Source: Dokdonella koreensis DS-123 (GTDB lineage Bacteria > Pseudomonadota > Gammaproteobacteria > Xanthomonadales > Rhodanobacteraceae). Taken from it: 64,000 bases of DNA. The notes below the pieces were generated by a model, which had not been told where the DNA came from, ran no database searches, and saw nothing but the letters and a program-made list of their open reading frames with translations. Numbering within the stretch: position 1 is the first letter of the stretch; every line of letters begins with the position of its first letter. This document shows, in pieces, positions 3,675 to 27,530 of the stretch. The stretch is from NCBI RefSeq assembly GCF_001632775.1, contig NZ_CP015249.1, forward strand, positions 1,716,686 through 1,780,685. Reading direction: 5' to 3'. The translations under genes and the position numbers were made by a program.

Positions 3675-4228
3675 GTGAGGGCCTGGAACAGGAACGCCCG
3701 CGCCACCTCCCAGTCGCGCTGCGCGGTGGCTCGCGAAATGCCGAGCAGGTCGGCGATGTCGGTCATCTCGATACCGGCGAAGTAGCGCAGCTCGACCACG
3801 CGCGCCTTGCGCGCGTCGGTGGCCTCCAGCGTGCGCAGGGCCTGGTCGAGCGCGAGGATGTCGATGCGGTCGCCGCTGCCGTCGGCCAGCCCCGACAGCG
3901 TGACGTCCTCGCGCTGGCCCCCGCCGCGCTTGGCCGCATCGCGCCGGCGCGCGTGGTCGACCAGCACCTGGCGCATGCGCCGCGCAGCGATCGCGAAGAA
4001 CTGGCGGCGATCCTCGGGCGCGAAGGAGGCCTCGCCCGACAGGCGCAGCCAGGCCTCGTGGACCAGGGCCGTCGGCGTCAGCGTGTGGCCGGCGCGCTCG
4101 CCGGACAGGTGGCGCGCGGCGATCCGGCGCAGCTCGTCGTAGACCAGGGGCAGCAGGTCCGACTCGGCGCCCGGCTCGCCGGCCGACAACCGCTGCAGCA
4201 GAACCGTGATCGCGCCCGTATCGTCCAT
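3671..4228 (-). CDS. ECF RNA polymerase sigma factor (ECF43-like)
   Basis: A 185-residue sigma-70 family factor of the extracytoplasmic-function class. Region 2 covers LLPLVYDELRRIAARHLSG and the following TPTALVHEAWLRL; region 4 covers RVVELRYFAGIEMTDIADLL with its helix-turn-helix. No anti-sigma gene adjoins it. Instead its stop overlaps the start of a Ser/Thr kinase gene, the arrangement seen in ECF43 systems, where control is by phosphorylation. The start MDDTGA was chosen because it matches the usual N terminus of the family; the open frame runs further upstream but that part is Arg/Pro-rich and antisense to an acetyltransferase gene. First gene of the operon sigma-kinase-LRR protein. 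Confidence 0.92.
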
Positions 4229-4293
4229 CGTCTCCCCCGGCCGCTGCCGATTGTAGCTGCGTGAAGCGACGCCGCGCCGGCCGCGGCCGGCCG

Positions 4294-7829: not shown

Positions 7830-8508
7830 CGCCGCGGCGCCTCCACAGCGCGCCGCCGAGCAGCGCCGCGACCACGGTAGCCGCCAGCGCGACGGCGAAC
7901 GCGACCACCGTCAACCGCTGCACGCCGGCCTCGCCGCCGGGGACGTTCATCAGTTCGTAGATCGCGATCGGCAGCGTGCGGGTCTCGCCGGGGATGTTCG
8001 AGACGAAGCTGATCGTGGCGCCGAACTCGCCGAAGGCACGGGCGAACGCCAGCACGCAGCCGGCCAGGATGCCGCCGGAGGAGAGCGGCAGCACGATCGT
8101 CACGAAGCGGCGCCAGCCGCCGGCGCCGAGCGTCTCGGCGGCACGCTCCAGGCGCCGGTCGACACCGTCGAAGGCGACGCGGATCGACAGCACCAGCAAC
8201 GGGAAGCCCATCACCGCGGCCGCCAGCACGGCGCCGGTCCAGCGAAATGCGAAGACGATGCCGGCCGCCGCCAGCCACTCGCCGATCGCGCCGTTGCGCC
8301 CGAACAGCACCAGCAGCGCATAGCCGGTCACCACCGGCGGCAGCGTCAGCGGCAGGAACAGCAGTCCCTCGACCAGCAGCCGGCCCGGGAAGCGCGTGCG
8401 CGACAGCAGCCAGGCCAGCGCGAGCGCGAACGGCAGCGAGACGATCACGCTGATCACGGCGACGCGCAGGCTCAGCAGCAGGGCGGCGGTTTCGTCGGGC
8501 GTCAGCAT
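7822..8508 (-). CDS. modB: Molybdate ABC transporter permease
   Basis: A 228-residue inner-membrane permease with about five transmembrane helices. The EAA loop typical of binding-protein-dependent permeases is seen around AAETLGAGGWRRFVTIVLPL (141-160), where it contacts the ATPase. PLTLPPVVTGYALL and FARAFGEFGATISF are hallmarks of ModB/CysT-type permeases. It sits between modA (40 bases upstream) and modC (8-base overlap), in the order modA-modB-modC on the minus strand. Confidence 0.94.
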   Translation of the reverse strand: MLTPDETAALLLSLRVAVISVIVSLPFALALAWLLSRTRFPGRLLVEGLLFLPLTLPPVVTGYALLVLFGRNGAIGEWLAAAGIVFAFRWTGAVLAAAVMGFPLLVLSIRVAFDGVDRRLERAAETLGAGGWRRFVTIVLPLSSGGILAGCVLAFARAFGEFGATISFVSNIPGETRTLPIAIYELMNVPGGEAGVQRLTVVAFAVALAATVVAALLGGALWRRRGDD

Positions 8509-12617: not shown

Positions 12618-14141
12618 TCAGGGAATCCGGATCGCCGCGCCGCTGCGGTCGTAGGCATAGTCGAGCACGGTGGCCGGAAAGCCGGCCGGCGCGGTCGTCT
12701 GCAGGTGCAGGAAGCCGTAGTTGACCTGGCCGGTCTGCTCGTTCCAGAACTTGAAGCCGAGGTAGCCGGTGGCACCGGCCAGCCAGTGGTCGAGCGGCTT
12801 GGACAGCAGGCTGTAGAACGGGTTTTCGTGGACCAGCGCGCCGGGTTGCAGCAGCGAGAAGTCGACCGCCCCGGTCGTGTTGACGTCGACGACACCGGCG
12901 ACGAAGGCCTCGGGCACCACGTCGGCGTACCAGTAGACGCTGAGTGCGCCGCTGCCGTCGCCGGCGTAGAGGTTGACGTCGGCCGGCACGCCACCGGTCT
13001 TGGGGCCGTGCGTGCCGGTGACCAGGTCGATCGCCAGGCCGGCGAAATCGGCGGGCACCGGCCAGTTCAGCGGGCCGCTGCGGACGACCGTCCCGCCGTC
13101 GTCGCAGCGGCCGGTCTCGCCTAGCTCGAAACCGCTGCAGAACAGCGGCGATCCGGCGGCGGCCACCGTCACGTCGATCGCCACGCGCGCCTCCGGCCGC
13201 GCCGGATCGTTGCTGCGCACGCAGGCCGTGGCCCGGTAGCGTCCGGCGGCCAGGACGTCGCCGCGCGCGGCGAACCACAGATTCGTCGCGGCGCCCGCGC
13301 CGAGCGCGCCGCCGGCCGGCGTGGCGGTCAGCCACGGCAGCGGCGCAGCCGAACAGGCCGCCTCGGCATCGACCACGACGACGGTGTAGGCGAGCGGATC
13401 GGCGCCGAGGTTGGCGAGCATCACGGGAGCGGCCGCGGTCGAGGGCGCGACCACGGTGAAGCCGAGCGCGGCCGGCGCCAGGTCCACGGTCGGTTGGGTC
13501 GAACCGGCCGGGCCGAGGCGGACGGTATCGATCCACCAGCCGTTCGGTGCCGGTGCGGCCGTCGAGGAATCGGTGCCGAAGCGCCAGCGCAGCTGCACGG
13601 TCCGGCCGGCGGGGCCCGGTGGCAGCGCGACCCGGGTGGCGATGAAGCCGGCGCGTTCGCCACCGCTCCAGGCGGCGCGGCCGCCGATCGGATTGCCGCC
13701 GCAGCAGGGCGCCAGCGTCGCGTCGTAGCCACCGCTCACGAACCGGCCACCGGCGTCGAGGATGTCGACGAAGCCGCCGCCGTCGACCGCGATCTCGAGC
13801 ACGCCGCCGTCGTACGGAGCGACCTCGAGGTTCCAGCGGTGGCGGAAGCTCAGTTCCGTTTCGTCGGCGGCGAGCGCCAGCAGCGGACTGTAGAGGCTCG
13901 CCTCGCCGGGGACTTCGGCTTCCGCGATGTGCACCGCGTGCGGTGCGGAGTGGGCGGCATCGGCGACGACGTGCCAGGCGTTGCCGGCGCCGTCGGTGGT
14001 GGTCGACCAGCCGGCCGGCAGGGTGGTGGCCTCGTCGAAGGTCCAGTCGCGGGCTGCGAGGGCCGGAGCCGACAGGCTGCAGGCGGCGAGCACGGCCAGC
14101 CCGGACCAGCGGGCGGAGCGGGAAGGGCGATGAAGAGGCAT
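12618..14141 (-). CDS. Large secreted protein with MAM/immune-inhibitor-like beta-sandwich
   Basis: A 507-residue exported protein of unknown role. The signal peptide ends near SAPALAARD (29). Residues about 30-220 hold a jelly-roll-like domain with W-TFDE, GWSTTTDGAGNAWHV, LSFRHRWNLE, YDGGVLEIAVDGG and GWWIDTVRLG, a pattern common after immune-inhibitor-A-type peptidases and in other bacterial secreted proteins. An Ig-like segment follows, then LFCSGFELGE, an internal form of the G-F-E motif of this window, and a C-terminal domain of about 160 residues with many W, Y and G. No catalytic motif is seen. It converges with the sulfite-oxidase-fold gene, with only 19 bases between their stops. 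Confidence 0.75.
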   Translation of the reverse strand: MPLHRPSRSARWSGLAVLAACSLSAPALAARDWTFDEATTLPAGWSTTTDGAGNAWHVVADAAHSAPHAVHIAEAEVPGEASLYSPLLALAADETELSFRHRWNLEVAPYDGGVLEIAVDGGGFVDILDAGGRFVSGGYDATLAPCCGGNPIGGRAAWSGGERAGFIATRVALPPGPAGRTVQLRWRFGTDSSTAAPAPNGWWIDTVRLGPAGSTQPTVDLAPAALGFTVVAPSTAAAPVMLANLGADPLAYTVVVVDAEAACSAAPLPWLTATPAGGALGAGAATNLWFAARGDVLAAGRYRATACVRSNDPARPEARVAIDVTVAAAGSPLFCSGFELGETGRCDDGGTVVRSGPLNWPVPADFAGLAIDLVTGTHGPKTGGVPADVNLYAGDGSGALSVYWYADVVPEAFVAGVVDVNTTGAVDFSLLQPGALVHENPFYSLLSKPLDHWLAGATGYLGFKFWNEQTGQVNYGFLHLQTTAPAGFPATVLDYAYDRSGAAIRIP

Positions 14142-14441
14142 GCAGGGTGTCCGGGTCGGGGAGGGCGGTGCACGAACGGCGGCGTGCGGCCGCGCATTGC
14201 AGGCCAGCCGTCGTGGTGCCGCTTCGCCGCGGCGTGTCCGCTCGATGGCCGCTCGCGACAAGCGCTTGATCCGGTTCGCATCGACGACGGCGGCGTGCAG
14301 GCGGGTGCTGCCGCAGGCGCTCGCAACGGCGCCGGTGACCGGACGCTGCCGGCCCGGCGCATATCGCTGGCGGTCGCGGCAAGGTAAAGTCCCTCGCGGA
14401 TCGGCGGCCGTCCGGCATCGGCCGGCCACGGATCGCGCCAC
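14142..14441. other. Intergenic region upstream of tRNA-Leu
   Basis: About 300 bases between the divergent secreted-protein gene and the tRNA-Leu gene. No protein-coding pattern is convincing on either strand. A TAAAGT hexamer at 14385-14390 could be a -10 for the tRNA, but no clear -35 is seen at the right distance. Nothing else is recognised. Confidence 0.4.
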
Positions 14442-14760
14442 GCCCGAGTGGTGAAACTGGTAGACACAAGGGACTTGAAAATTTGAGCCCTGCGCGGGAA
14501 ACCGCCCAGGTGGAACCCGTCAAATTCGGCGAACGCCCTGGCCGCGACCTGCGACCGAGCCGACGCCGAGCCAAGCCCGCGGCCCGGCGCCGCGGGAAGG
14601 TGTAGAGAGCAGACGGCGGGCGCCTACGGCCGTTCCGGCTATGGTGAAGGCGTGCTCCAGACCACGAACGGCGCTTCCGGCGCCGGCGGCGAAAGCCGAA
14701 GTGGCACGAAAATCCCTCGACCTCGCGGTCATGCCGGTTCGATTCCGGCCTCGGGCACCA
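14442..14760 (+). tRNA. tRNA-Leu(UAA), interrupted by a group I intron
   Basis: Exon 1 is 14442-14476 and exon 2 is 14709-14760; joined they give an 87-nt tRNA with CCA encoded. The acceptor arm GCCCGAG (14442-14448) pairs fully with CTCGGGC (14750-14756). The D arm is GTG/CAC with GG in the loop. The anticodon stem AGGGA/TCCCT encloses the spliced loop CTTAAAA, giving anticodon UAA. The long variable arm (GACC/GGTC) is class II, as required for leucine. The T arm is GCCGG-TTCGATT-CCGGC. The break lies after U34 of the anticodon, the same place as in cyanobacterial and plastid tRNA-Leu(UAA) introns. Read unspliced, the loop looks like CTTGAAA and would mimic a UGA anticodon. Confidence 0.95.
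14477..14708 (+). ncRNA. Group I self-splicing intron (subgroup IC3-like) in tRNA-Leu(UAA)
   Basis: A 232-nt intron without an open reading frame. P1 pairs exon GGGACTT with intron GAGCCC (14485-14490), leaving the conserved U.G wobble at the 5' splice site. P2 is a hairpin with a GAAA tetraloop (14489-14510). The P element AAATTCGGCGAA (14522-14533) pairs with Q element GACGCCGAGCCAAG (14562-14575) to form P4. P7 is formed by GAGCA (14607-14611) within the R element and TGCTC (14653-14657) within the S element. A GAAA-capped P9 hairpin is at 14687-14698. The last base is G14708, the expected terminal guanosine. Overall layout and many core blocks match the Azoarcus tRNA-Ile intron as I remember it, with compensating changes in P7. 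Confidence 0.93.
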
Positions 14761-14809
14761 TCACGCGACCGGCCGCCGCGGCCGGCCGCGCAGCACGCGG
14801 CGGCGCGGC

Positions 14810-15682
14810 TCAATCGCCGAGCAGGCCGAGCAGCTCGCGCTCGCTCAGGTTGACCTCGGCGAGCGGATTGCCGCTGACCTGTCCGTACCAGTCCCCGGAA
14901 ACCTGCAAGGCCGGGCGCCGGAAGCGGATCCAGTCGACCTCCAGCATCATGTCGGTGGCCGCCTGGGTGTCGACGCTGCGATTGATGCGCTGCGGATCTT
15001 CCGGCGCCGGCGCGACCTCGTCGCTGGTGGTATAGGCGACCAGGCCGACCTGCATCTGCCGGCTGTTCTCCATCCGGTACCAGCGATCGCGCACGCGCCA
15101 GGCGCTCTCGCCGTCGGGGCGCGCCAGCGCGACCAGCGCCATGCCCACGCGCACCAGGCGCAGCTCTACCCAGCCGCTCGGGAACGGCCGCAGTTTCAGC
15201 GACGAGTAGCTGTTGAGCGTGGCCTTGGTCTCGGTCATCTGCTCGCCGGCCACGTGGCCGACGCCGGTGGTGATGAAATGCCAGTTCTCGCGCCGCGGTT
15301 GCCAGGTCTCGGCGGTCAGGCCGTTGGGCACGCGCGCGAACAGGCCGCCGAGCGACCAGGTGCCACCGGCGATCGCGCGCTCGGCGCCGCGCACGCGCAC
15401 CCGGGCGCGGACGTCGAAGTCGCCGGAGACCTCGCGGAACAGGAACGGGGCGTTGAGGTCGCGCACCCAGGCCGAATGGTGAGGCTGCAGGTTCAGCGCG
15501 CCGTCGGTGGTCGCTCCGATGTCCAGGTGCTTGATCTTGTCGGGCCAGCCGAAGCGCTGGTGGAACAGGTTCCAGTCGCCGAGCGTCGCGCGCGCGGCGA
15601 ATTCGTCGTTCAGATGCGCCAGGTCGTCGGCGGCCGCGGTCGCGGCCGGGAGAAACAAGGTGAACAGCAGCCATGCAGGCAT
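14810..15682 (-). CDS. Secreted DUF1349-like (concanavalin-fold) protein
   Basis: A 290-residue exported protein with a signal peptide ending near PAATAAADD (about 18). Features such as FLFREVSGDFDVRARVRV, GGLFARVPNG and WVELRLVRVGMALVALARPD resemble the beta-sandwich of DUF1349-type proteins, which often bind sugars. The C terminus SERELLGLLGD is polar. No catalytic residues are apparent. It stands alone, with the tRNA-Leu gene downstream in the opposite orientation and 132 bases to the histidine kinase stop upstream. Confidence 0.72.
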   Translation of the reverse strand: MPAWLLFTLFLPAATAAADDLAHLNDEFAARATLGDWNLFHQRFGWPDKIKHLDIGATTDGALNLQPHHSAWVRDLNAPFLFREVSGDFDVRARVRVRGAERAIAGGTWSLGGLFARVPNGLTAETWQPRRENWHFITTGVGHVAGEQMTETKATLNSYSSLKLRPFPSGWVELRLVRVGMALVALARPDGESAWRVRDRWYRMENSRQMQVGLVAYTTSDEVAPAPEDPQRINRSVDTQAATDMMLEVDWIRFRRPALQVSGDWYGQVSGNPLAEVNLSERELLGLLGD

Positions 15683-19684: not shown

Positions 19685-21355
19685 TCAGGGCTGCTTGCGG
19701 TCGAGCACCAGTTCGGTCGGGCCCTGCTTCAACGTGACCCGCGAGGCCGGCCCGGGCTGCGTGTCGAACGTCAGCATCGCGTCGACCTCGGCGATGAACA
19801 GGCGTTCGGCACTCTCGGCCTTCAGCGCGAACGCCGGCTGGCCCGGTACCTGCACGCGCAGCACGCCGGCTTCGTCGAAGAACACCTTGAACGCGAGCTG
19901 CGGCGCGGCGTAGTCGCCGACCAGGCGTTCCTGCGCGGCACGCGGCAGGTCGACTTCGGTGCGCGCGGCGGGCGCGTCGCCGGTGCGCTCCCAGGGTTCG
20001 CCGGCCTCGCCCTCGGGGAAGAAGCGCAGGCCCGTCGTCCGGCCGCGCCGGTCGCGCAGCGGCTCCAGGTAGGACAGCGAGCCCTCGAACATGAAACGGC
20101 CGCCGGCGACCGGCACCAGCCGATACGGCGTGCCGCCGCTGCGCTGGGACGTCAGCACGCCGTCGACCACACGCAGCACGCGCGTGTCCTTCCCGGCCTT
20201 CTTGCGGTAGCTGCCTTCCAGCGCCTGGAGATCGGCGGGCGCAACGGTGATCGGGGCCGGGTCCGGGTACGGGTCGCCCAGGGCGAAGGCGGCGATGCGG
20301 CGTTCGGCCGGCGGCACCGGTGCGCCGTCGGCGTTGCGCAGGCTGACCACGGTGAGCTGCGCCTCCGGCAGCCAGGTCAGCTTGGACAGGAAGCCGTTGA
20401 TGCCGCCGTCGTGCGTCAGCATCGTCCGGCCGCGCAGCTGGCCGACGCCGATGCCGTAGCCGTAGTGCGTCTCGGTGGCGGCGCCGGCCGGCGTGATCAT
20501 GCGCCGGTAGGTGGCCTCCTTGAGCACGCGGCCGCGGTGCAGGGCGAGGTTCCAGCGCCACAGGTCATCCAGCGTGGAGACCAGCGCGCCGGCCGCATGC
20601 GGCTGCGTCATGCTGAGCGGACCGGCGCGGGCCACCTTGCCGCCGGCCAGGCTGTAGCCCTCGGCGAAGCCGGGGATGATCGCGGCGTCCTCGCCGTAGC
20701 GCGTGTGGGCCAGGCCCAGCGGCTCGAACAGCGCCTCGGCCAGGTAGGCATGCCAGGGCTTGCCGGTGATCTTCTCGATCACCGCCCCGACCAGCACGTA
20801 GCCGGAGTTGCTGTAGGCCCACTTCTCGCCGGGCGCGAAGTCCGGCTTCTCGTTCCGGAAGACCTCGATCAGCTCGGCCGTCGTCAGGTCGCGGCGGATG
20901 CCCTCGTCCATGTAGCCGGGCAGGTCGGTGTAGTTGCGGATGCCGGCGGTGTGGTCGAGCAGCTGGTGCAGCGTGATCGCCTGCGCATTGGGATAGTCGG
21001 GCAGGTAGGTGGCCAGCGGATCGTCCAGCGCGGCGTGGCCTTCATCGACCAGCTTCAGCAGCGCTGCCGCGGCGAACTGCTTCGTCACCGAGCCGATGCG
21101 CAGGACATGGTCCGGCTTCAGCGCCACGCCGAGCTCGATGCTCGCCCGGCCGCGCGCGCCGCGGTAGAGGATCTGGTCGCCGCGGGCGACGAGGACCGCC
21201 AGGCCCGGGCCGTCGGCATCGGGGACCGCCTCGCGCATCACGCGCTCGGCGTACTCGGCGACCTGTTCCGCGATGGGGGCGGGCTTGGAGGTGGCGGCGC
21301 CCGCGACCAGCGGGACCATCAGCAGCAGCGGAAGCAATCGGCGCATCGGGGACAT
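19685..21355 (-). CDS. Serine hydrolase of the beta-lactamase/DD-peptidase (class C) family
   Basis: A 556-residue exported enzyme; the signal peptide ends near VPLVAGAAT. The catalytic motifs are SVTK (SxxK, about 93-96), YSN (about 182) and HDG in LTHDGGINGF (about 320), all intact. The C-terminal 200 residues form an extra beta-rich domain often found in esterase-like members. The substrate (peptide, ester or lactam) is not predictable. It follows the small DUF6249 gene by 27 bases on the same strand and is likely co-transcribed. Confidence 0.87.
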   Translation of the reverse strand: MSPMRRLLPLLLMVPLVAGAATSKPAPIAEQVAEYAERVMREAVPDADGPGLAVLVARGDQILYRGARGRASIELGVALKPDHVLRIGSVTKQFAAAALLKLVDEGHAALDDPLATYLPDYPNAQAITLHQLLDHTAGIRNYTDLPGYMDEGIRRDLTTAELIEVFRNEKPDFAPGEKWAYSNSGYVLVGAVIEKITGKPWHAYLAEALFEPLGLAHTRYGEDAAIIPGFAEGYSLAGGKVARAGPLSMTQPHAAGALVSTLDDLWRWNLALHRGRVLKEATYRRMITPAGAATETHYGYGIGVGQLRGRTMLTHDGGINGFLSKLTWLPEAQLTVVSLRNADGAPVPPAERRIAAFALGDPYPDPAPITVAPADLQALEGSYRKKAGKDTRVLRVVDGVLTSQRSGGTPYRLVPVAGGRFMFEGSLSYLEPLRDRRGRTTGLRFFPEGEAGEPWERTGDAPAARTEVDLPRAAQERLVGDYAAPQLAFKVFFDEAGVLRVQVPGQPAFALKAESAERLFIAEVDAMLTFDTQPGPASRVTLKQGPTELVLDRKQP

Positions 21356-21382
21356 CCTGCAAGGGAACGGGACGGGAGCCGC

Positions 21383-21712
21383 TCAGCGGCCGGACCAGCG
21401 GGCGATCGCGTAGTAGACGAGGTTGCCGATGCCGGTCGCACCGAGCAGGATCGCGAAGATGCCGGGGGTCGGCTCGGTCCAGTCCATGCGCTCGATCACC
21501 GCGAAGCCGACCGCCAGCGCCAGCATCACCACGCCCCAGCGCAGCGCGGCGTGGCGGCGTTGCAGCTCGTCGCCTTCGAGCATGGAGCGGATCAGGTCCT
21601 GCGACGCGCTGGCGTCGACGATGCGGCGGCGGGTGCGGGCGTCGACGACGACCTTGATCGAGTAGGCGATGCAGGCGAACAGGCTGATCGGGATGAAGAC
21701 GTCCAGGTTCAT
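21383..21712 (-). CDS. Small membrane protein (DUF6249-like)
   Basis: A 109-residue inner-membrane protein with three hydrophobic segments: about 1-22 (VFIPISLFACIAYSIKVVVD), 60-78 and 84-102. The stretch ARTRRRIVDASASQDLIRSM between the first two is cytosolic and charged, matching the layout of DUF6249 proteins that often sit beside ECF sigma genes. It is divergent from the ECF sigma gene at 21823, with 110 bases between starts, and upstream of the serine hydrolase. Confidence 0.7.
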   Translation of the reverse strand: MNLDVFIPISLFACIAYSIKVVVDARTRRRIVDASASQDLIRSMLEGDELQRRHAALRWGVVMLALAVGFAVIERMDWTEPTPGIFAILLGATGIGNLVYYAIARWSGR

Positions 21713-21822
21713 GGGGGTACCTCGGGGTTTTGGGGGGCGCAGCAGGAGATACGGCCGCAGCCGGGGCGGTTGCAGCGCCCGGCTTGCAACCATACCCGCC
21801 CTGGGCGTATCCCTGGCTGGCG

Positions 21823-22434
21823 ATGACCGATTCCGCCCGCCCCATCGTCCCCCGCACGACCGCCGACGCCGAGGCGGACCTGGCGCTCGTGCAGGCCGTC
21901 CTGGCCGGTGCGCCGGGCGCGTTCGAGCGACTGTTGCGCCAGTACCAGGGCCTGTGCTGGCACATCGTCGATCGCATGGTGCGGCACCCGGAGGACACCC
22001 GCGAGCTGTGCCAGGAAGCCTTCCTGCGCGTGCATCGCTACCTGCACCAGTACCGCAGCGAGAGCCCGCTGAAGGCCTGGATCGGCCAGGTCGCCTACTC
22101 GGTCGCCAAGCGCCACCTGGAGCGCCGGCGGATCCCGCTGGCCGAGGCGCCGGATGGCGGCGACGGCATGGCGCTGGCCGAGTCGGTCGGCCAGGACTTC
22201 GACCTGGAAGCGGCCTGGGCCGAGGACGAGGCGCTGGGCCACCTGCACGCGGCGATCGAGACGCTGCCGCCGTTGCAGCGTACGTTGTTGACGTTGTATC
22301 ACCTGGACGAGGTGCCGATCGGCGAGATCGCCGCCATGACCGGCCTCGCCGAAGGTACGATCAAGAGCCACCTGTTCCGCAGCCGCAGGCAATTGCGCGC
22401 GGTGCTCGAACCGCGCATCGGAGTCGTCGCATGA
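21823..22434 (+). CDS. ECF RNA polymerase sigma factor
   Basis: A 203-residue sigma factor. Region 2 is seen as FERLLRQYQGLCWHIVDRMV, CQEAFLRVHRYLHQY and SPLKAWIGQVAYSVAKRHLE; region 4 is LPPLQRTLLTLYHLDEVPIG with the helix-turn-helix AAMTGLAEGTIKSHLFRSR. Its stop overlaps the start of a membrane protein gene (ATGA), typical of a sigma/anti-sigma pair. The divergent DUF6249-serine hydrolase unit may be under its control. Confidence 0.92.
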   Translation: MTDSARPIVPRTTADAEADLALVQAVLAGAPGAFERLLRQYQGLCWHIVDRMVRHPEDTRELCQEAFLRVHRYLHQYRSESPLKAWIGQVAYSVAKRHLERRRIPLAEAPDGGDGMALAESVGQDFDLEAAWAEDEALGHLHAAIETLPPLQRTLLTLYHLDEVPIGEIAAMTGLAEGTIKSHLFRSRRQLRAVLEPRIGVVA

Positions 22435-22886
22435 AATCCCAACCTCCCGCTTTTGACGAGCACGCGTTCGACGAGCGCGAATGGCAGGCGCAGGAGCGCG
22501 CGCGGCGCGCACCGCCGGCCGCCGCGCCGGGTGACGGCTACGCGCTGGTCGCGCGTGCCCTGCGCGAGCCGCCGCTGTCGCCGCTGCCGGCCGATTTTGC
22601 CGCCGAGGTCGCGCGGCGTGCCGTCGCCGAGCGGCCGGGCGCGCCGGCCGAGCCCTGGCTGGAGCGCCTGCTCGGCACCGCGCTCGGCCTGGCCCTGGCC
22701 GTCGCCGGCCTGATCACCGCGCTGGTCTATGGCGGCACCTGGCTGCAGGCGGTCGCGGACGCACTGCCGCGGCCGCCGACCACGGCGCTGCCGCTCGGCA
22801 TGATGCTGGCGGTCTGTGTCGGCCTGTCCTGGCTGGTCGGGCAGGTGGGCCGACCGGCCGGCCGTTCGTCCGGCCGGCGCGGCTGA
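22431..22886 (+). CDS. Membrane protein, putative anti-sigma factor
   Basis: A 151-residue protein translationally coupled to the ECF sigma gene by a four-base overlap. The N-terminal 85 residues are soluble and charged (ERARRAPPAAAPGD, PADFAAEVARRAVAER). Two transmembrane helices follow (about 88-110 and 120-141), separated by a short loop. No zinc-type HxxxCxxC anti-sigma motif is present. The anti-sigma role is inferred from position and topology only. Confidence 0.7.
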   Translation: MKSQPPAFDEHAFDEREWQAQERARRAPPAAAPGDGYALVARALREPPLSPLPADFAAEVARRAVAERPGAPAEPWLERLLGTALGLALAVAGLITALVYGGTWLQAVADALPRPPTTALPLGMMLAVCVGLSWLVGQVGRPAGRSSGRRG

Positions 22887-22945
22887 GCAACTGGGCGCGT
22901 CCCGGGCGCGCCGCCACTGCCGGCCGCCGGTATCGGGCGCTACCG

Positions 22946-25351
22946 CTACGGCCGGCGGACTGCCATCGCCGCCGGCACCGGGCGTTCGCCGGCCAGACCC
23001 TGCGCGCGCGCCAGAGCCGCGGCCTGGGCCTCGGCCTGGCCGACCGCCTGGTACAGGCGCGCCTGCAACAGCGCGCAGTCGAAGTCGTGGGCGGCCCAGC
23101 GTGCGACCTGGCCGACCACGGCGCTGGCACGGACATGGTCTCCGGCCGCGATCAGCGCATCGCCATAGGACACCACCACCTCGGCGACATCGGCCGGTGA
23201 GCCGGCGCGGTTGGCCTCGCGCAGCGCCGCCTCGTAGACCGGTGCCGCGGTTTCCTGACGGCCCGCGGCGGCGTCCTGTTCGGCGACCGCCAGCAGCGAA
23301 TGGATGCGCATGTCCGGCTCGCCGCTGCGCTCGGCCAGGGTGGTGAAGCGACGGACCTCGGCCTGCGCCTCGGTCGCCCGCCCGGCCGCCCGCAGCGTCC
23401 GCACGCGCATCAGCCAGCCGCTGGCGCGCAGGCGCGCGTACAGCGGCGTCGCCAGCGCAGGCTCGATCAACGCCGCGTCGTCGTCGAGCAGGCGCGCGGC
23501 GCGCACGGCATTGCCGTGCGCCAGCTCCAGCCGCGCCAGCTCGGTGCGCACCGCCAGCGGCAGTCCCAGCACCGGGTCATGTGCTGGTGCGTCGAGGATC
23601 GGCTCGAGCAGCGCGCGCGCCTGGCGGTCGCGGCCGTTGCGGATCAGCACGCGCGCGTAGGTGTAGTCGAAGATCACGCGCGTCAGCGCGCCGTCCTCGA
23701 TGCGCGCCAGCCAGGGCAGGGCGCGTTCGGCCGTCGCCAGCGCCTCGGCCGATTCGAGCAGCGCGAGGCGCTCGACGCTGGCGTTGCCGAGCGCATCGAC
23801 CAGGTTCTTCGCGTCGCCGAAGCGCTCGAAGCGGGTGGCGACGCGATCCCACACCGCCAGCGCTTCGGCGTGCCGGTTGCGCAGCGCCAGCAGGTTGGCC
23901 TGCTGCCCCTCCAGCCGTGCCAGGCGCAGCGTGTCGCCGCCGAGTTCCAGCGCGACGCGCCCTTGCGAGAAGTCCGAGTCGGCGTGGTCATAGTCCCCCT
24001 GCACCATGCGCAGCGTGGCGCGCCCGGCCAGCGCCTCGCCGAGCAGGTCCGGCTGGTTGAGGTCCTGCAGGATCGCGATCGCGTCGGTCAGCTGGCGCTG
24101 CGCGCCGGCCAGGTCACCCTGCTGTGCCAGCGGGCCGGAAATGCCCATCAAGGCGCGGGCGCGCATCACCGGATCGCTTTCCCGGTCCGGGAAGCGGCGC
24201 AGCAGCTCGCCGTAGGCGGCCAGCGCCGCGTCGTTGCGCTCGGTGGTGATGTCCAGGTCCGCCTGCCGCAGCAGCAGCTCGGAGGAATCCCGCAGTTCGG
24301 CCGGTGCGTTCTCCACCAGGTGGCGGGCCGCTGCGAAGTCGCGGTCGAGCACGGCGGCGTCGATGCGCTGCAGCCACAGCGCCGGCGGGCCGTCGGCGGC
24401 AGGCAGTGGTGCCGGTGCCTGGCGCTGCAGCCAGCCGAGCAGCCGGTCGCCCGCTTGGCGGGCCGCACCGGCGGCGTCGCCGTCGCGGCCTTCGGCCTCG
24501 CGCAGGACCGTGTCGCCGCGCCGCCATTGCAGGCGCACCACCCAGCCGGTGGCCGACCGTTCGGCGGCTCCGGCGATCAGGCTGCCGGCGCCGGTGGCCT
24601 CGCGTACGCGCTGCGCTTCGAGCACCGCCGCGCCATCGTTGCGGGCCAGCGCGACCACGTTGGCGCTCGGCACGACGACCAGGCCGGCGCGGCGAAGATG
24701 GTTGGCGACCAGGTCCATCAGGCCCAGCCGCAACCACGCCCATTCGTTGTCGATGCCGGCGCCGACCTCGAGCGGGAGGATCGCCACCGCTTCGTCCGGT
24801 CCGGGACGCTGCGCGGCAGACCCGGCCACCGCCGGCGGCGCCGGTCGGCCGAGCCACCAGCCGCCGGCGAGCAGCAGCACCAGCAGCGCCAGCGCGGCCG
24901 CGGCCAGCCCGGCACGGCGTGCGGGTGTCGCGGGCCGGAATTCGGGGATCGGTTCCGGCGGCTCGGGCGGGACCGCCGCCTGGACCGGCCCGGCGGCCGG
25001 CGGCTCCGGCAGCGCCGGCTTGGCGCGGCTGTCGCTCACCGTGGTGGCGGCGATCCAGCGGTAGCCGAAGCGCGGCACGGTGCGGATGATCGTCTGGCTG
25101 TCGCCGTCGTCGCCGATGACGCGGCGCAGCTTGCGCATCAGCTGGCCCAGCTGCGCATCGGCGACGTCGGCGCGGCCCCAGACGGCGGCGATCAGCTCGT
25201 CGCGACCCACCGCGCGGTCCCGATGCTCGATCAACCAGACCAGGCAGTCGAAGATCTTCGGCGAGACCACGACCAGTTCGCCGTCGCGCCGCAGTTCACG
25301 CGCGGCGCTGTCGAGCTCGAAGGTGGCGAAGCGGTAGCACGGGCGCGTCAT
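22946..25351 (-). CDS. CadC/ToxR-like membrane transcriptional regulator with TPR domain
   Basis: An 801-residue protein with an OmpR-type winged helix at the N terminus (FELDSAARELRRDGELVVVS, CLVWLIEHRDRAVGRDEL, LMRKLRRVIGDD, PRFGYRW, residues 8-96). A Pro-rich linker leads to one transmembrane helix at about 167-187, followed by a long periplasmic part. The latter begins with an adenylate-cyclase-associated-like fold and continues as TPR repeats (about 370-780). There is no receiver domain, so signals are expected to come from the periplasmic part. Common in Xanthomonadales; target genes are unknown. It converges with the ECF anti-sigma gene. Confidence 0.88.
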   Translation of the reverse strand: MTRPCYRFATFELDSAARELRRDGELVVVSPKIFDCLVWLIEHRDRAVGRDELIAAVWGRADVADAQLGQLMRKLRRVIGDDGDSQTIIRTVPRFGYRWIAATTVSDSRAKPALPEPPAAGPVQAAVPPEPPEPIPEFRPATPARRAGLAAAALALLVLLLAGGWWLGRPAPPAVAGSAAQRPGPDEAVAILPLEVGAGIDNEWAWLRLGLMDLVANHLRRAGLVVVPSANVVALARNDGAAVLEAQRVREATGAGSLIAGAAERSATGWVVRLQWRRGDTVLREAEGRDGDAAGAARQAGDRLLGWLQRQAPAPLPAADGPPALWLQRIDAAVLDRDFAAARHLVENAPAELRDSSELLLRQADLDITTERNDAALAAYGELLRRFPDRESDPVMRARALMGISGPLAQQGDLAGAQRQLTDAIAILQDLNQPDLLGEALAGRATLRMVQGDYDHADSDFSQGRVALELGGDTLRLARLEGQQANLLALRNRHAEALAVWDRVATRFERFGDAKNLVDALGNASVERLALLESAEALATAERALPWLARIEDGALTRVIFDYTYARVLIRNGRDRQARALLEPILDAPAHDPVLGLPLAVRTELARLELAHGNAVRAARLLDDDAALIEPALATPLYARLRASGWLMRVRTLRAAGRATEAQAEVRRFTTLAERSGEPDMRIHSLLAVAEQDAAAGRQETAAPVYEAALREANRAGSPADVAEVVVSYGDALIAAGDHVRASAVVGQVARWAAHDFDCALLQARLYQAVGQAEAQAAALARAQGLAGERPVPAAMAVRRP

Positions 25352-25417
25352 CGGCCCGAAGATAGCGCGCCCGCTTCCGTCGTGTCATGTCGGCGCGGGC
25401 GCGCCGGCAGGCCGCGC

Positions 25418-26320
25418 TCAGTGGCCGGCGACGTACTTCTTCTCGCCGGCGGTCACGCGCAGCGCCAGCCGGTTCTCCGGCGGCGCAGTGGGGCAGACCA
25501 CGTGTGGCGAAAGGGCGCAGGGCGGGTTGTAGGCCTTGTTGAAGTCGAGCACGACCTTGCCGTCCTTCGGCGCGTCGGCATACAGGAAGCGCGCCGCGCC
25601 GTAGCTCTCCTTGCCGCTGGTCCGGTCGGCGATGATGAAGAACAACTGCTTGCCGTCGTCCTCGGACAGCGGCTGCAGCTCGAAGCGCTGCCCGTCGCGC
25701 TCGAACACCGCCTTGCCCGGCACCGTGCCTTCCTCGGGCGTGCCGAGCGAGGTGACCAGCTCGATCGTCTTGGGCGAATCGAACGGCTGCCAGTCGGCCA
25801 CGATGCGCCAGGACGGATCGATCGGCCAGGTGTCGATGCCGGTGAAGCCGGTACGCGCCGGTGATTGCGGATCGCGGAAGCGCCAGCCGACGACGTCGCC
25901 GGTCTTGACGACGTAGAACCAGGTCTCGCCGAGCGTCACGCGGGTGGGCGTGGCGCCGTCGGCGTTGGTCGCCAGGGCGACCCGCTCGAACGGCTTGCCG
26001 TCCACGCGCGCGTCGCTGCCGGCGGGCACGGCGAGGCTGAGGCTGCCGTCCGGCGCCAAGGTCAGCGTGCCCAGGTGCTCGGGGCCCTTCGGCAGCACGA
26101 TCGCGTTGTCCTCGGCGCGGCCGACCGTGTTGTCGCCGGGCTGCACGCGTCCGGAACCGGCGAAGCTCAGCCAGCCGTCGGGCTTCTGCAGATTGGCGAT
26201 GCGCGTGGCGTGCCAGCGCTCGATGGAGCCGACGTAGTCGTCCGGCGCCGCCAGCGCCGGCGCCAGGGCCGCCAGCAGCAGGCCGGAAACGAGGAGACGC
26301 CGGATCGCGGGTAGGGACAT
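25418..26320 (-). CDS. Exported DUF1684 protein
   Basis: A 300-residue protein with a signal peptide ending near APALAAPDD (25). The DUF1684 signature is clear: IERWHATRIANLQKPDGWLS near the N terminus and VVLDFNKAYNPPCALSPHVV followed by CPTAPPENRL near the C terminus. The latter has the two Cys residues usual for the family. YVVKTGDVVGWRFRDPQSPA lies in the middle. The biochemical function of DUF1684 is not established. It is a single gene, with the CadC-like regulator downstream. Confidence 0.88.
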   Translation of the reverse strand: MSLPAIRRLLVSGLLLAALAPALAAPDDYVGSIERWHATRIANLQKPDGWLSFAGSGRVQPGDNTVGRAEDNAIVLPKGPEHLGTLTLAPDGSLSLAVPAGSDARVDGKPFERVALATNADGATPTRVTLGETWFYVVKTGDVVGWRFRDPQSPARTGFTGIDTWPIDPSWRIVADWQPFDSPKTIELVTSLGTPEEGTVPGKAVFERDGQRFELQPLSEDDGKQLFFIIADRTSGKESYGAARFLYADAPKDGKVVLDFNKAYNPPCALSPHVVCPTAPPENRLALRVTAGEKKYVAGH

Positions 26321-26420
26321 GGCGGTGGCTTCGGGCTGGAGACGATGGCCGAGTATAGGCCGGGCCGCCGCGGCCGCGGCGCAGGGCCGGCCCGGCGGCT
26401 CATGAAAAGACCGATGCGGC

Positions 26421-27530
26421 TTATGCCGGATCGAAGCCGTTGAGGAAGATCTCGATGCTCGGCAGCGCGACGCTGCGCACGCAGTTCCAGGTCTCGCCGA
26501 TGCGCGGGCCGGTGTCGATGATCTGGAAGTCGGTCACCTTGACCGGCGCGGCGCCGCCGGTGCCGTTCCAGAAGATCTGCGAGGTGATGCCCAGCGTGGA
26601 CCACTTGGCCGTGGTGTGGCGGTCGCTCTCGAACGTCAGCGCGATGTTGCCGCCGTCGGCCAGCACCAGGCCGTAGCGCTGCATCGTGCGCAGGATCACG
26701 CGTGCGGCCGGGTTGTAGCCGGCCATGTCGAAGTCCGGCCGCAGCCGCATGCGCACGCCGTAGGGCACGCTGCCGCGGGGACCGGACGGACCGCCGGCAT
26801 GCGAGGCCGGCCGCACGTAGAGCCGCCCGCCGACGCCGCCGAGCGCGGGGTCGGTCGCCATGCGCGCGTTCGGCAGGATGAAGCGGATCGCATGACCGAG
26901 GTCGCCGTTGGCGTCGCCCGCGCGCGCGGCGACCTCGTCGGCGTTCACCAGCAGCGGTGCCACCGGGAAGCCGGCGGCGTCGGCGCTGGTGCAATGCTCG
27001 CCGCGCCCTTCGGGCGGATAGACCACCGACAGGTCCCACACGGTCAGGCAGCGCGCATCGAGCACGCCACCGGACAGGTTGCCCGAGTAGAGCTCGTAGA
27101 GCTTGCTGCCCTGGCGTACCAGCAGGTGGCAGTCGGAGTTGGCGCTGTTGCAGGTCAGGCCGCTCTGGCCTTCGAACGCGGCATCGGCCGGCACCGGCAT
27201 CGTCGTCGGCAGCGCTTCGCAATCGGGCCGCCAGTACTCGCCCGAGCCGCGATGCGGGATCACCTCGTAGCGCGGTGCGTCGGCCGGGGCGGTGTGGTGT
27301 ACGTGCAGCGAGAAGTCGATCTGCATCCGGTTGCTGTTGCCCCAGCCACCGAGACCGGCGAGCGTCTCGAGCATCGCGCGCGACTGCGGGTGCAGCGGCG
27401 CGTCGGCGATGTTCTGGTGCCAGACCGCGCCGGCGGGAAAGCGCGGCGGCACGACGGCGGTGGCGAGCAGCGGCGTCAGGGCCAGCGCGAGCAGGGCCGG
27501 ACCGAGGAGGCGGGAAGCGGGTTTGGGCAT
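26421..27530 (-). CDS. Secreted protein of unknown function ending in G-F-D motif
   Basis: A 369-residue exported protein with a signal peptide ending near LLATAVVPP (about 25). It is rich in W, N and G (GAVWHQNIADAPLHPQS, GWGNSNRMQIDFSLHVHH) and has four paired Cys in the region CEALP, CNSANSDCHLL and ARCLTVWD. The C terminus reads SIEIFLNGFDPA, a variant of the G-F-E/D tail found in four other exported proteins here. Similar proteins are common in Xanthomonadales, but I know of no assigned function. A GTG start four codons upstream is an alternative. Confidence 0.72.
   Translation of the reverse strand: MPKPASRLLGPALLALALTPLLATAVVPPRFPAGAVWHQNIADAPLHPQSRAMLETLAGLGGWGNSNRMQIDFSLHVHHTAPADAPRYEVIPHRGSGEYWRPDCEALPTTMPVPADAAFEGQSGLTCNSANSDCHLLVRQGSKLYELYSGNLSGGVLDARCLTVWDLSVVYPPEGRGEHCTSADAAGFPVAPLLVNADEVAARAGDANGDLGHAIRFILPNARMATDPALGGVGGRLYVRPASHAGGPSGPRGSVPYGVRMRLRPDFDMAGYNPAARVILRTMQRYGLVLADGGNIALTFESDRHTTAKWSTLGITSQIFWNGTGGAAPVKVTDFQIIDTGPRIGETWNCVRSVALPSIEIFLNGFDPA

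Follow-up and report, generated by a model that had tools for sequence, protein, structure and literature searches.

A tRNA-Leu(UAA) gene of Dokdonella koreensis is split by a group I intron and probably entered the genome as a replacement tRNA on an integrative element

Introduction

Group I introns of subgroup IC3 are known in bacterial and plastid tRNA genes, namely those for Leu(UAA), Ile(CAU), Arg(CCU) and fMet. In the account of tRNAscan-SE 2.0, group I introns in tRNA-Ile2 and tRNA-fMet are given as the explanation for missing tRNAs, with 36 genomes lacking fMet or Ile2 and with the Ile2 genes of Acidovorax and Burkholderia being named; the available text of that paper names no Leu tRNAs and describes no mobile context (PMC8450103). 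Putative group I introns in tRNA-Leu(TAA) and tRNA-Arg(TCT) have been noted in Beggiatoa and Thiomargarita, which share both the host tRNA and the class Gammaproteobacteria with the case described here; there, in the text available, the introns are putative and their type and structure were left undetermined (PMC4853749).

A second system bears on the setting of such genes. In the tRNA-dependent lysogeny described by Guerrero-Bustamante and Hatfull in 2024, a tyrosine integrase acts at a short core (8-17 bp in the available entries) inside a tRNA gene, the resident tRNA is not rebuilt, and the element carries a tRNA of the same isotype; in the available main text of that paper the word "intron" occurs once, in the title of a reference (PMC10865867). 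According to the available text of a review, the phage introns known by 2014 were in protein genes only (PMC3984707).

Here we describe a tRNA-Leu(UAA) gene in a stretch of 64,000 nucleotides from Dokdonella koreensis DS-123 (contig NZ_CP015249.1, positions 1,716,686 to 1,780,685), hereafter called the window. The gene resembles those with group IC3 introns in its anticodon-loop insertion site, P1 U.G pair, P2-P9 core, length class (about 200-250 nt) and lack of an endonuclease gene. It differs in that three tRNAs of the host were found only in intron-bearing form, in that tRNA-Leu(CAA) introns have a C-G splice site, and in that genes related to that of the window ride on integrative elements. 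The integrase, the short core inside the tRNA, the resident gene left split and the carried tRNA of the same isotype are all as in tRNA-dependent lysogeny, whereas here the element is conjugative, belongs to Proteobacteria and brings a tRNA interrupted by a group I intron. Our main reading, to which we give a probability of about three in four, is that the window gene is the sole tRNA-Leu(UAA) gene of its host, depends on a ribozyme, and arrived whole on an integrative element as a replacement tRNA, both that element and the resident gene having since been lost. The intron is of a known kind and has been reported before from other Gammaproteobacteria. What did not appear in the open-access PMC literature searched is its setting, in which integrative elements carry an intron-bearing replacement tRNA and that tRNA is, in this genome, the sole copy found: among titles and abstract openings, a scope outside which most subscription papers and preprints fall, none concerned group I introns in the replacement tRNAs of integrative elements.

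The intron and its splice sites

When introns were allowed, ARAGORN called a tRNA-Leu(taa) gene at 14442-14760 of the window with a 232-nt intron after base 35, which places the split between tRNA positions 34 and 35. Run without introns, ARAGORN called no tRNA at 14442-14760. Removal of the intron leaves an 87-nt tRNA of normal class II form with an encoded CCA (Table 1). The original prediction, made from the sequence, had already given the exact borders, the class II product, the GAAA loops of P2 and P9 and the terminal G, all of which we recovered. It had also warned that tRNA callers might miss the gene, as ARAGORN without introns did, or read a UGA anticodon, which did not occur. (Note that at 232 nt the intron is too short to hold an endonuclease gene.)

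Table 1. Features of the intron-bearing tRNA-Leu(UAA) gene, in window coordinates
Feature	Position	Strand	Evidence
5' exon of tRNA-Leu(UAA), through U34	14442..14476	+	ARAGORN with introns, sequence
Group I intron, 232 nt, IC3-like, last base G	14477..14708	+	ARAGORN, model, covariation
3' exon of tRNA-Leu(UAA), including encoded CCA	14709..14760	+	ARAGORN
Segment across the 5' splice site	14470..14490	+	Fold, splice-site counts
P2, GAAA loop	14489..14510	+	Sequence/alignment
P3 5' strand, partner 14615-14620	14516..14521	+	Helix 99.7% paired
P4 5' strand, partner 14564-14569	14526..14531	+	Helix 99.3% paired
P7 5' strand GAGCA, partner 14653-14657 UGCUC, guanosine-binding helix	14607..14611	+	99.2% paired, 114 double-sided changes
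P7 3' strand UGCUC	14653..14657	+	Covariation
P9 terminal hairpin, GAAA loop	14687..14698	+	Sequence, covariation

The window intron scored 219 bits against a model built from 16 introns, itself among them, and RNAalifold on 16 introns recovered P2, P3, P4, P5, P6, P8 and P9 with double-sided changes at 30 of 52 pairs. In an alignment of 101 matches (100 distinct) from 100 chosen sources, which was fitted to the modelled helices, 57 pairs were 95.9% paired over the 100 distinct rows, compared to at most 45.4% when the partners were slid. P7 is absent from the model; its double-sided changes (Table 1) include GC/CG and UA/CG swaps, and its pairing fell to at most 43.2% on sliding. The window intron thus has both group I domains, P3-P7-P8 and P4-P6, with the P3/P7 pseudoknot, and the P3-P8 core that had been predicted covaries among the 100 related introns. 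Because the minimum-energy fold of the window intron by itself is no better than that of shuffled sequences (z -1.03; 29 of 200 shuffles equal it), the evidence for the intron is comparative, coming from covariation. We regard the intron as IC3-like and as a putative member of subgroup IC3, with which its architecture agrees in an alignment made up of related introns only.

The original prediction had also named a match to the Rfam group I intron model (RF00028, Intron_gpI) as a test of the intron. The test failed: RF00028 had no match in 14000-15200 at E<=1, or across the whole genome at E<=0.001. When applied to five related loci, RF00028 was over its cut-off at one, below it at three and without a match at one; the close relative L039, for example, reached 39.2 bits (cut-off 50), and L449 was missed. 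Since RF00028 also performs poorly on four of these five loci, we take the miss as a weakness of the model, which is insensitive to this class of intron.

Group I introns usually have a U.G pair at the 5' splice site. At the window splice site, exon CUU faces GAG and the final intron base is G, in keeping with the predicted P1 U.G pair, and the same form is found in 129 of 147 distinct tRNA-Leu(UAA) gene calls (ARAGORN placed the border elsewhere in most of the 18 exceptions). In tRNA-Leu(CAA) genes, the last exon base is instead a C that faces the G of GAG, forming a C-G pair in 35 of 38 distinct gene calls, the remaining 3 having the ARAGORN border one base earlier. The failure of RF00028 to match might be taken to indicate a dead intron or a pseudogene, a reading that we consider very improbable given that the core helices are all intact, that the splice sites keep their conserved form, that the exons form a proper tRNA and that no second copy was found. 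As follows from its architecture, the intron most likely self-splices from the pre-tRNA; exogenous G would attack after U34, and ligation of the exons would follow.

Sole copies in the host genome

The host genome is one contig of 4,446,619 bases, in which RF00005 has 46 matches. All 46 places were read with ARAGORN (L082 gave odd calls only, on both strands), and the only needed anticodons absent from them were those of Leu(UAA), Leu(CAA) and Ile(CAU). Exactly these three tRNAs were found in intron-bearing form, and the intron model matches just these three places, the other two being a tRNA-Leu(CAA) gene at C1:2468518-2468841 and a tRNA-Ile(CAU) gene at about C1:648889-649207. Intronless copies of the three were not found in the host genome by RF00005 or ARAGORN or, for the Leu tRNAs, by a sequence pattern. 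A second tRNA-Leu(UAA) gene elsewhere in the genome, which the original prediction had named as a possible counter-argument, was thus sought by all three means and none was found. (In the host, the tRNA-Ile(CAU) intron lies between U33 and C34; in the 7 relatives that were read it lies after the anticodon.)

The genome G001, from the same genus, has the same three intron-bearing tRNAs. The intronless-Leu(UAA/CAA) pattern, which spans 24 bases and so points to whole genes that are confirmed only at the loci inspected, has no match in the host genome (G000) or in G001, but each of the remaining 38 genomes in a set of 40 near ones does match it. For 8 other members of the genus it matches Leu(CAA) in 8 of 8 and Leu(UAA) in 7 of 8, with the match in G007 being a cut gene only. 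Since three tRNAs are found only in intron-bearing form, splicing should be essential, and the cell should depend on a ribozyme to read UUA and UUG. A likely essential decoding function may, in other words, come to rest on self-splicing RNA. Demand for tRNA-Leu(UAA) may nonetheless be low, as UUA and UUG are rare in the five window ORFs taken as genes (UUA 0, UUG 7 and AUA 2 in 2094 codons).

Related introns in other genomes

The original prediction described proteobacterial tRNA introns as best known in tRNA-Ile (Azoarcus) and tRNA-Arg (Agrobacterium). That such introns are rare among proteobacteria is not supported: the intron model has matches at E<=0.001 in 82 of 398 genomes sampled from the order, 72 of 369 from the class and 42 of 398 from the phylum (the samples overlap, each count includes the window's own genome, and some weaker matches are other tRNA introns, the weakest being only partly inspected). 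Since introns of this kind are common among Pseudomonadota, what is surprising about the present one is its context rather than its host. A full-length match to the window gene was found in 9 of 59 relatives, and a tenth, G039, matches it in two pieces.

A 24-base intron core occurs in at least 118 stretches of named genomes or MAGs and, among the matches listed, its hosts are Lysobacterales, Burkholderiales, Pseudomonas, Stutzerimonas, Ectothiorhodospira and others. The host tRNAs, as read from the sequence, are Leu(UAA), Leu(CAA), Ile(CAU) at two sites, Ser(UGA), Arg(CCU), Arg(UCU), Lys(UUU) and Thr(UGU). At many model matches ARAGORN gave the labels Arg ccg, Gln ctg, Ser cga or tRNA-Stop, which we rejected as mis-splicings; 7 sequences under such labels read as tRNA-Ile(CAU) with the intron after position 36. 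Intron-bearing tRNAs explain some missing tRNAs in annotations.

The window query also matches 1276 of 72,556 plasmids, and the contexts of three were inspected. In plasmid pCTX-M3 (L031), positions 7995-8293 hold an unannotated intron-bearing tRNA-Leu gene about 0.65 kb from aac(3)-IId. Among 5426 complete E. coli genomes, 635 match this stretch of pCTX-M3, and at that site there is no annotated feature in 10 E. coli genomes among the matches listed.

Integrative elements that carry related genes

In G007 and G025, the resident tRNA-Leu(UAA) gene breaks off after ...GACTTAAAATC and gives way to foreign DNA; some 160 bp beyond this resident 5' half, in the same direction, stands a complete intron-bearing gene. 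(We entertained the idea that the pattern matches in these two genomes were intact intronless genes in tandem, and rejected it because only 5' halves are present.) The genes that neighbour the intron-bearing tRNA in G007 are those for TrbL and CagX. In G025, a single contig, a complete 44-kb conjugative element with a tyrosine integrase lies at about 71.5 to 115.3 kb, bounded at either end by one half of the resident tRNA gene, with CTTAAAATC common to both ends. The resident 5' half ends near 115287 and the replacement tRNA is at 114798-115114, whereas the resident 3' half, the first bases of which are the core, lies near 71.5 kb. The integrase ORF (71601-72920, PF00589) is beside one end and the intron-bearing tRNA beside the other. 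The element encodes conjugation proteins of the CagE/TrbE, CagX/TrbG and TrbI families, a DUF3363 protein (with a relaxase match below the cut-off) and a ParA-like ATPase, and at its end the Gabija genes for GajA and GajB directly adjoin the replacement tRNA (L502 1062-4673). The intron-bearing gene thus appears to be a replacement tRNA, as in the tRNA-dependent lysogeny of phages.

Of the at least 118 core loci, 112 gave intron-bearing Leu calls, for a total of 113 calls, of which 108 have at least 340 bp of upstream sequence (6 loci without a Leu intron call and 5 calls with less than 340 bp upstream were dropped). Among the matches listed, a resident tRNA-Leu 5' half that is cut at the anticodon loop lies no more than 340 bp upstream in 35 of the 108 calls (UAA, 26 of 78; CAA, 9 of 30), and for the same 108 calls there is no 5' half between 340 bp and 4 kb upstream. 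The distance is about 180-335 bp in 34 of the 35 and 30 bp in L297, a case that may be something else. The 35 split loci, again among the matches listed, have 35 different 60-base host flanks and 30 different spacers, which argues that the host sites are separate and that some elements are near copies. The remnant varies between hosts; the intron-bearing gene stays alike. For the gene family, the replacement-tRNA route is well supported. (Note that in G002 some 4 kb of sequence hold two intact tRNA-Leu(UAA) genes together with an additional 3' fragment (L504), an arrangement that resembles the outcome of more than one integration at this tRNA.)

An attL signature occurs in 5 of 398 genomes of the order sample, and all 5 have an intron-bearing tRNA adjoining it, an association that is partly circular because such loci supplied the signature itself and, of the 5 genomes, only G371 was new, the other 4 having been seen before. 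The signature occurs in 0 of 293 genomes of the class sample, so that in its exact form it is uncommon.

Origin of the window copy

We propose that a tyrosine integrase would insert the element at the shared core CTTAAAATC, in the anticodon loop of the tRNA-Leu gene already resident, that this resident gene would be split and not rebuilt, and that the tRNA carried by the element about 160 bp from its end would take over. In the window genome, the element and the resident gene would then have been lost and the replacement fixed. Such a route offers group I introns an endonuclease-free passage through bacterial tRNA genes, by way of replacement tRNAs on conjugative elements and phages.

The mature tRNA of the window gene is identical at 86 of 87 positions to intron-bearing genes of other genera, whereas the nearest sampled intronless Leu gene is 86.2% identical and the nearest listed resident gene of the genus 83.9%. 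Because the window exons are closer to distant intron-bearing genes than to intronless ones, exons and intron mostly move as one gene. The original prediction had envisaged a separate acquisition of the intron, possibly by horizontal transfer into the same site; horizontal acquisition stands, and separate entry into the same site gives way to exons and intron mostly travelling together.

These comparisons bear on an alternative, namely that the resident tRNA-Leu(UAA) gained or kept its intron in place, through reverse splicing or homing, and that elements merely also carry such genes. The exon identities just given argue against it, as does the location of the gene in the host, 40 kb from Gly-Cys. 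Other observations are more readily accommodated by gain in place: the region that holds the window gene is collinear with G001, and in G017 and G031 the intron-bearing gene is in a Gly-Cys-Leu cluster resembling that of intronless relatives. (A Dokdonella sp. MAG, L292, is collinear with window 19685-26889 at 79.5-82.0%.) Moreover, the mature sequence of the host's tRNA-Leu(CAA) is identical to that of the intronless tRNA-Leu(CAA) of G014 and G018, which indicates that the presence of an intron can change with the exons untouched, and the Leu(CAA) intron would represent a precise loss or gain. The Leu(CAA) label requires 3 changes, at least 2 of them forced, on an intron tree of 184 rows (38 of them Leu(CAA)) in which the bootstrap was not settled. 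(Note that the tree omits the window row, since L001-L030 had been set aside as short duplicates and the window gene lay in none of the longer loci. Also excluded were L120/L126 and L501/L502, together with introns that were identical or whose length fell outside 190-330 nt.) On balance, we regard gain in place as an improbable origin for the window gene.

Acquisition as a replacement tRNA leaves the question of what surrounds the gene now. The 260 bp upstream of the window gene show a weak, borderline resemblance to element ends, with a score of 49 compared to a maximum of 48 in 200 shuffles, and at a different distance from the tRNA. Among six relatives, the sequence upstream of the intron-bearing gene retains element-end-like DNA, but no tRNA half, in three (G014, G017 and G022), as would be expected of decaying elements, and in G001, G031 and G037 no such DNA was found there. 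Upstream of tRNA-Leu(CAA), whether intronless (G014, G018) or intron-bearing (G000, G001), no element-end relic rose above shuffles. In the window genome, no remnant of the resident tRNA was found by the 5'-half pattern or by a match to the 3' exon elsewhere, and the window has no PF00589 integrase, the 5 PF00589 matches of the genome all being more than 800 kb away. The arrangement that defines tRNA-dependent integration is therefore seen in G025, and its attL half at the 35 split loci, and not at the window copy, which looks like a settled replacement. Since no element was found beside the window copy, we infer its route from its relatives, just as we infer splicing in this cell and cutting by the integrase at the shared core.

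Intron-bearing tRNAs in phages

Viral contigs contain at least 120 stretches with the core pattern and, among the matches listed, the core is inside an ARAGORN intron-tRNA call in 88 of 120 (isotype labels as called). Ten chosen proteins from 5 viral loci, when compared to PHROGs, matched rIIA/rIIB, baseplate, tail, endolysin, tail-fibre, DNA ligase and helicase families, one of the ten matches being weak. (The viral contigs L384 and L421 carry rII or baseplate/tail genes together with tRNA genes that have group I introns of about 200 nt.)

When 50,697 phage records were searched with the window gene by BLAST, 5 matched, two of which are versions of the record of Gordonia phage Daredevil. Positions 3960-4271 of Daredevil (L520) hold a tRNA-Lys(UUU) gene with a 238-nt group I intron, which is absent both from the annotation of the record and from the intron-free output of ARAGORN. 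The integrase gene of Daredevil is beside an attP-like anticodon stem-loop sequence, with the tRNA-Lys(UUU) gene 165 bp away. In the available text of the study cited above, Daredevil integrates in tRNA-Lys-TTT without a tRNA of its own and forms clear plaques (PMC10865867). The tRNA-Lys(UUU) gene is a candidate for the cognate tRNA; the clear plaques suggest that it may be non-functional in that host.

Position of the intron

The intron sits between CTT and AAAATC of the core and thereby splits the presumed crossover core. One possible explanation, which we offer tentatively and think less likely than not, is that the intron serves as camouflage at the DNA level: it would break the recognition sequence of the integrase in the replacement tRNA gene, protecting that gene from attack as a second attachment site, and splicing would restore the tRNA. 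This would suggest a function for such an intron, would mean that elements can use an essential tRNA gene as a landing site, and would leave bacteria with ribozyme-dependent translation once the element decays. It draws on the position of the intron and on the association of the attL signature with intron-bearing replacements in all 5 genomes, which is small and partly circular.

We lean slightly towards another account, in which the intron is no more than a passenger, selfish or neutral, and its position in the loop is unrelated to the integrase; this account is compatible with origin as a replacement tRNA. Group I introns of bacterial tRNAs are generally in the anticodon loop, and here too they interrupt other tRNAs. 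The passenger account has to contend with the 5 attL-signature genomes and with the recurrence of the same layout in an actinophage. The camouflage proposal is weakened in turn by this general preference for the loop and by the replacement tRNAs of phages with tRNA-dependent lysogeny, which are described with no mention of introns in the available text (PMC10865867). It is weakened further by L213, the one locus with an upstream remnant among 17 intron-bearing loci mostly of other tRNAs: the remnant of its resident tRNA-Arg(UCU) extends through the anticodon arm to the T arm, which places that crossover outside the loop.
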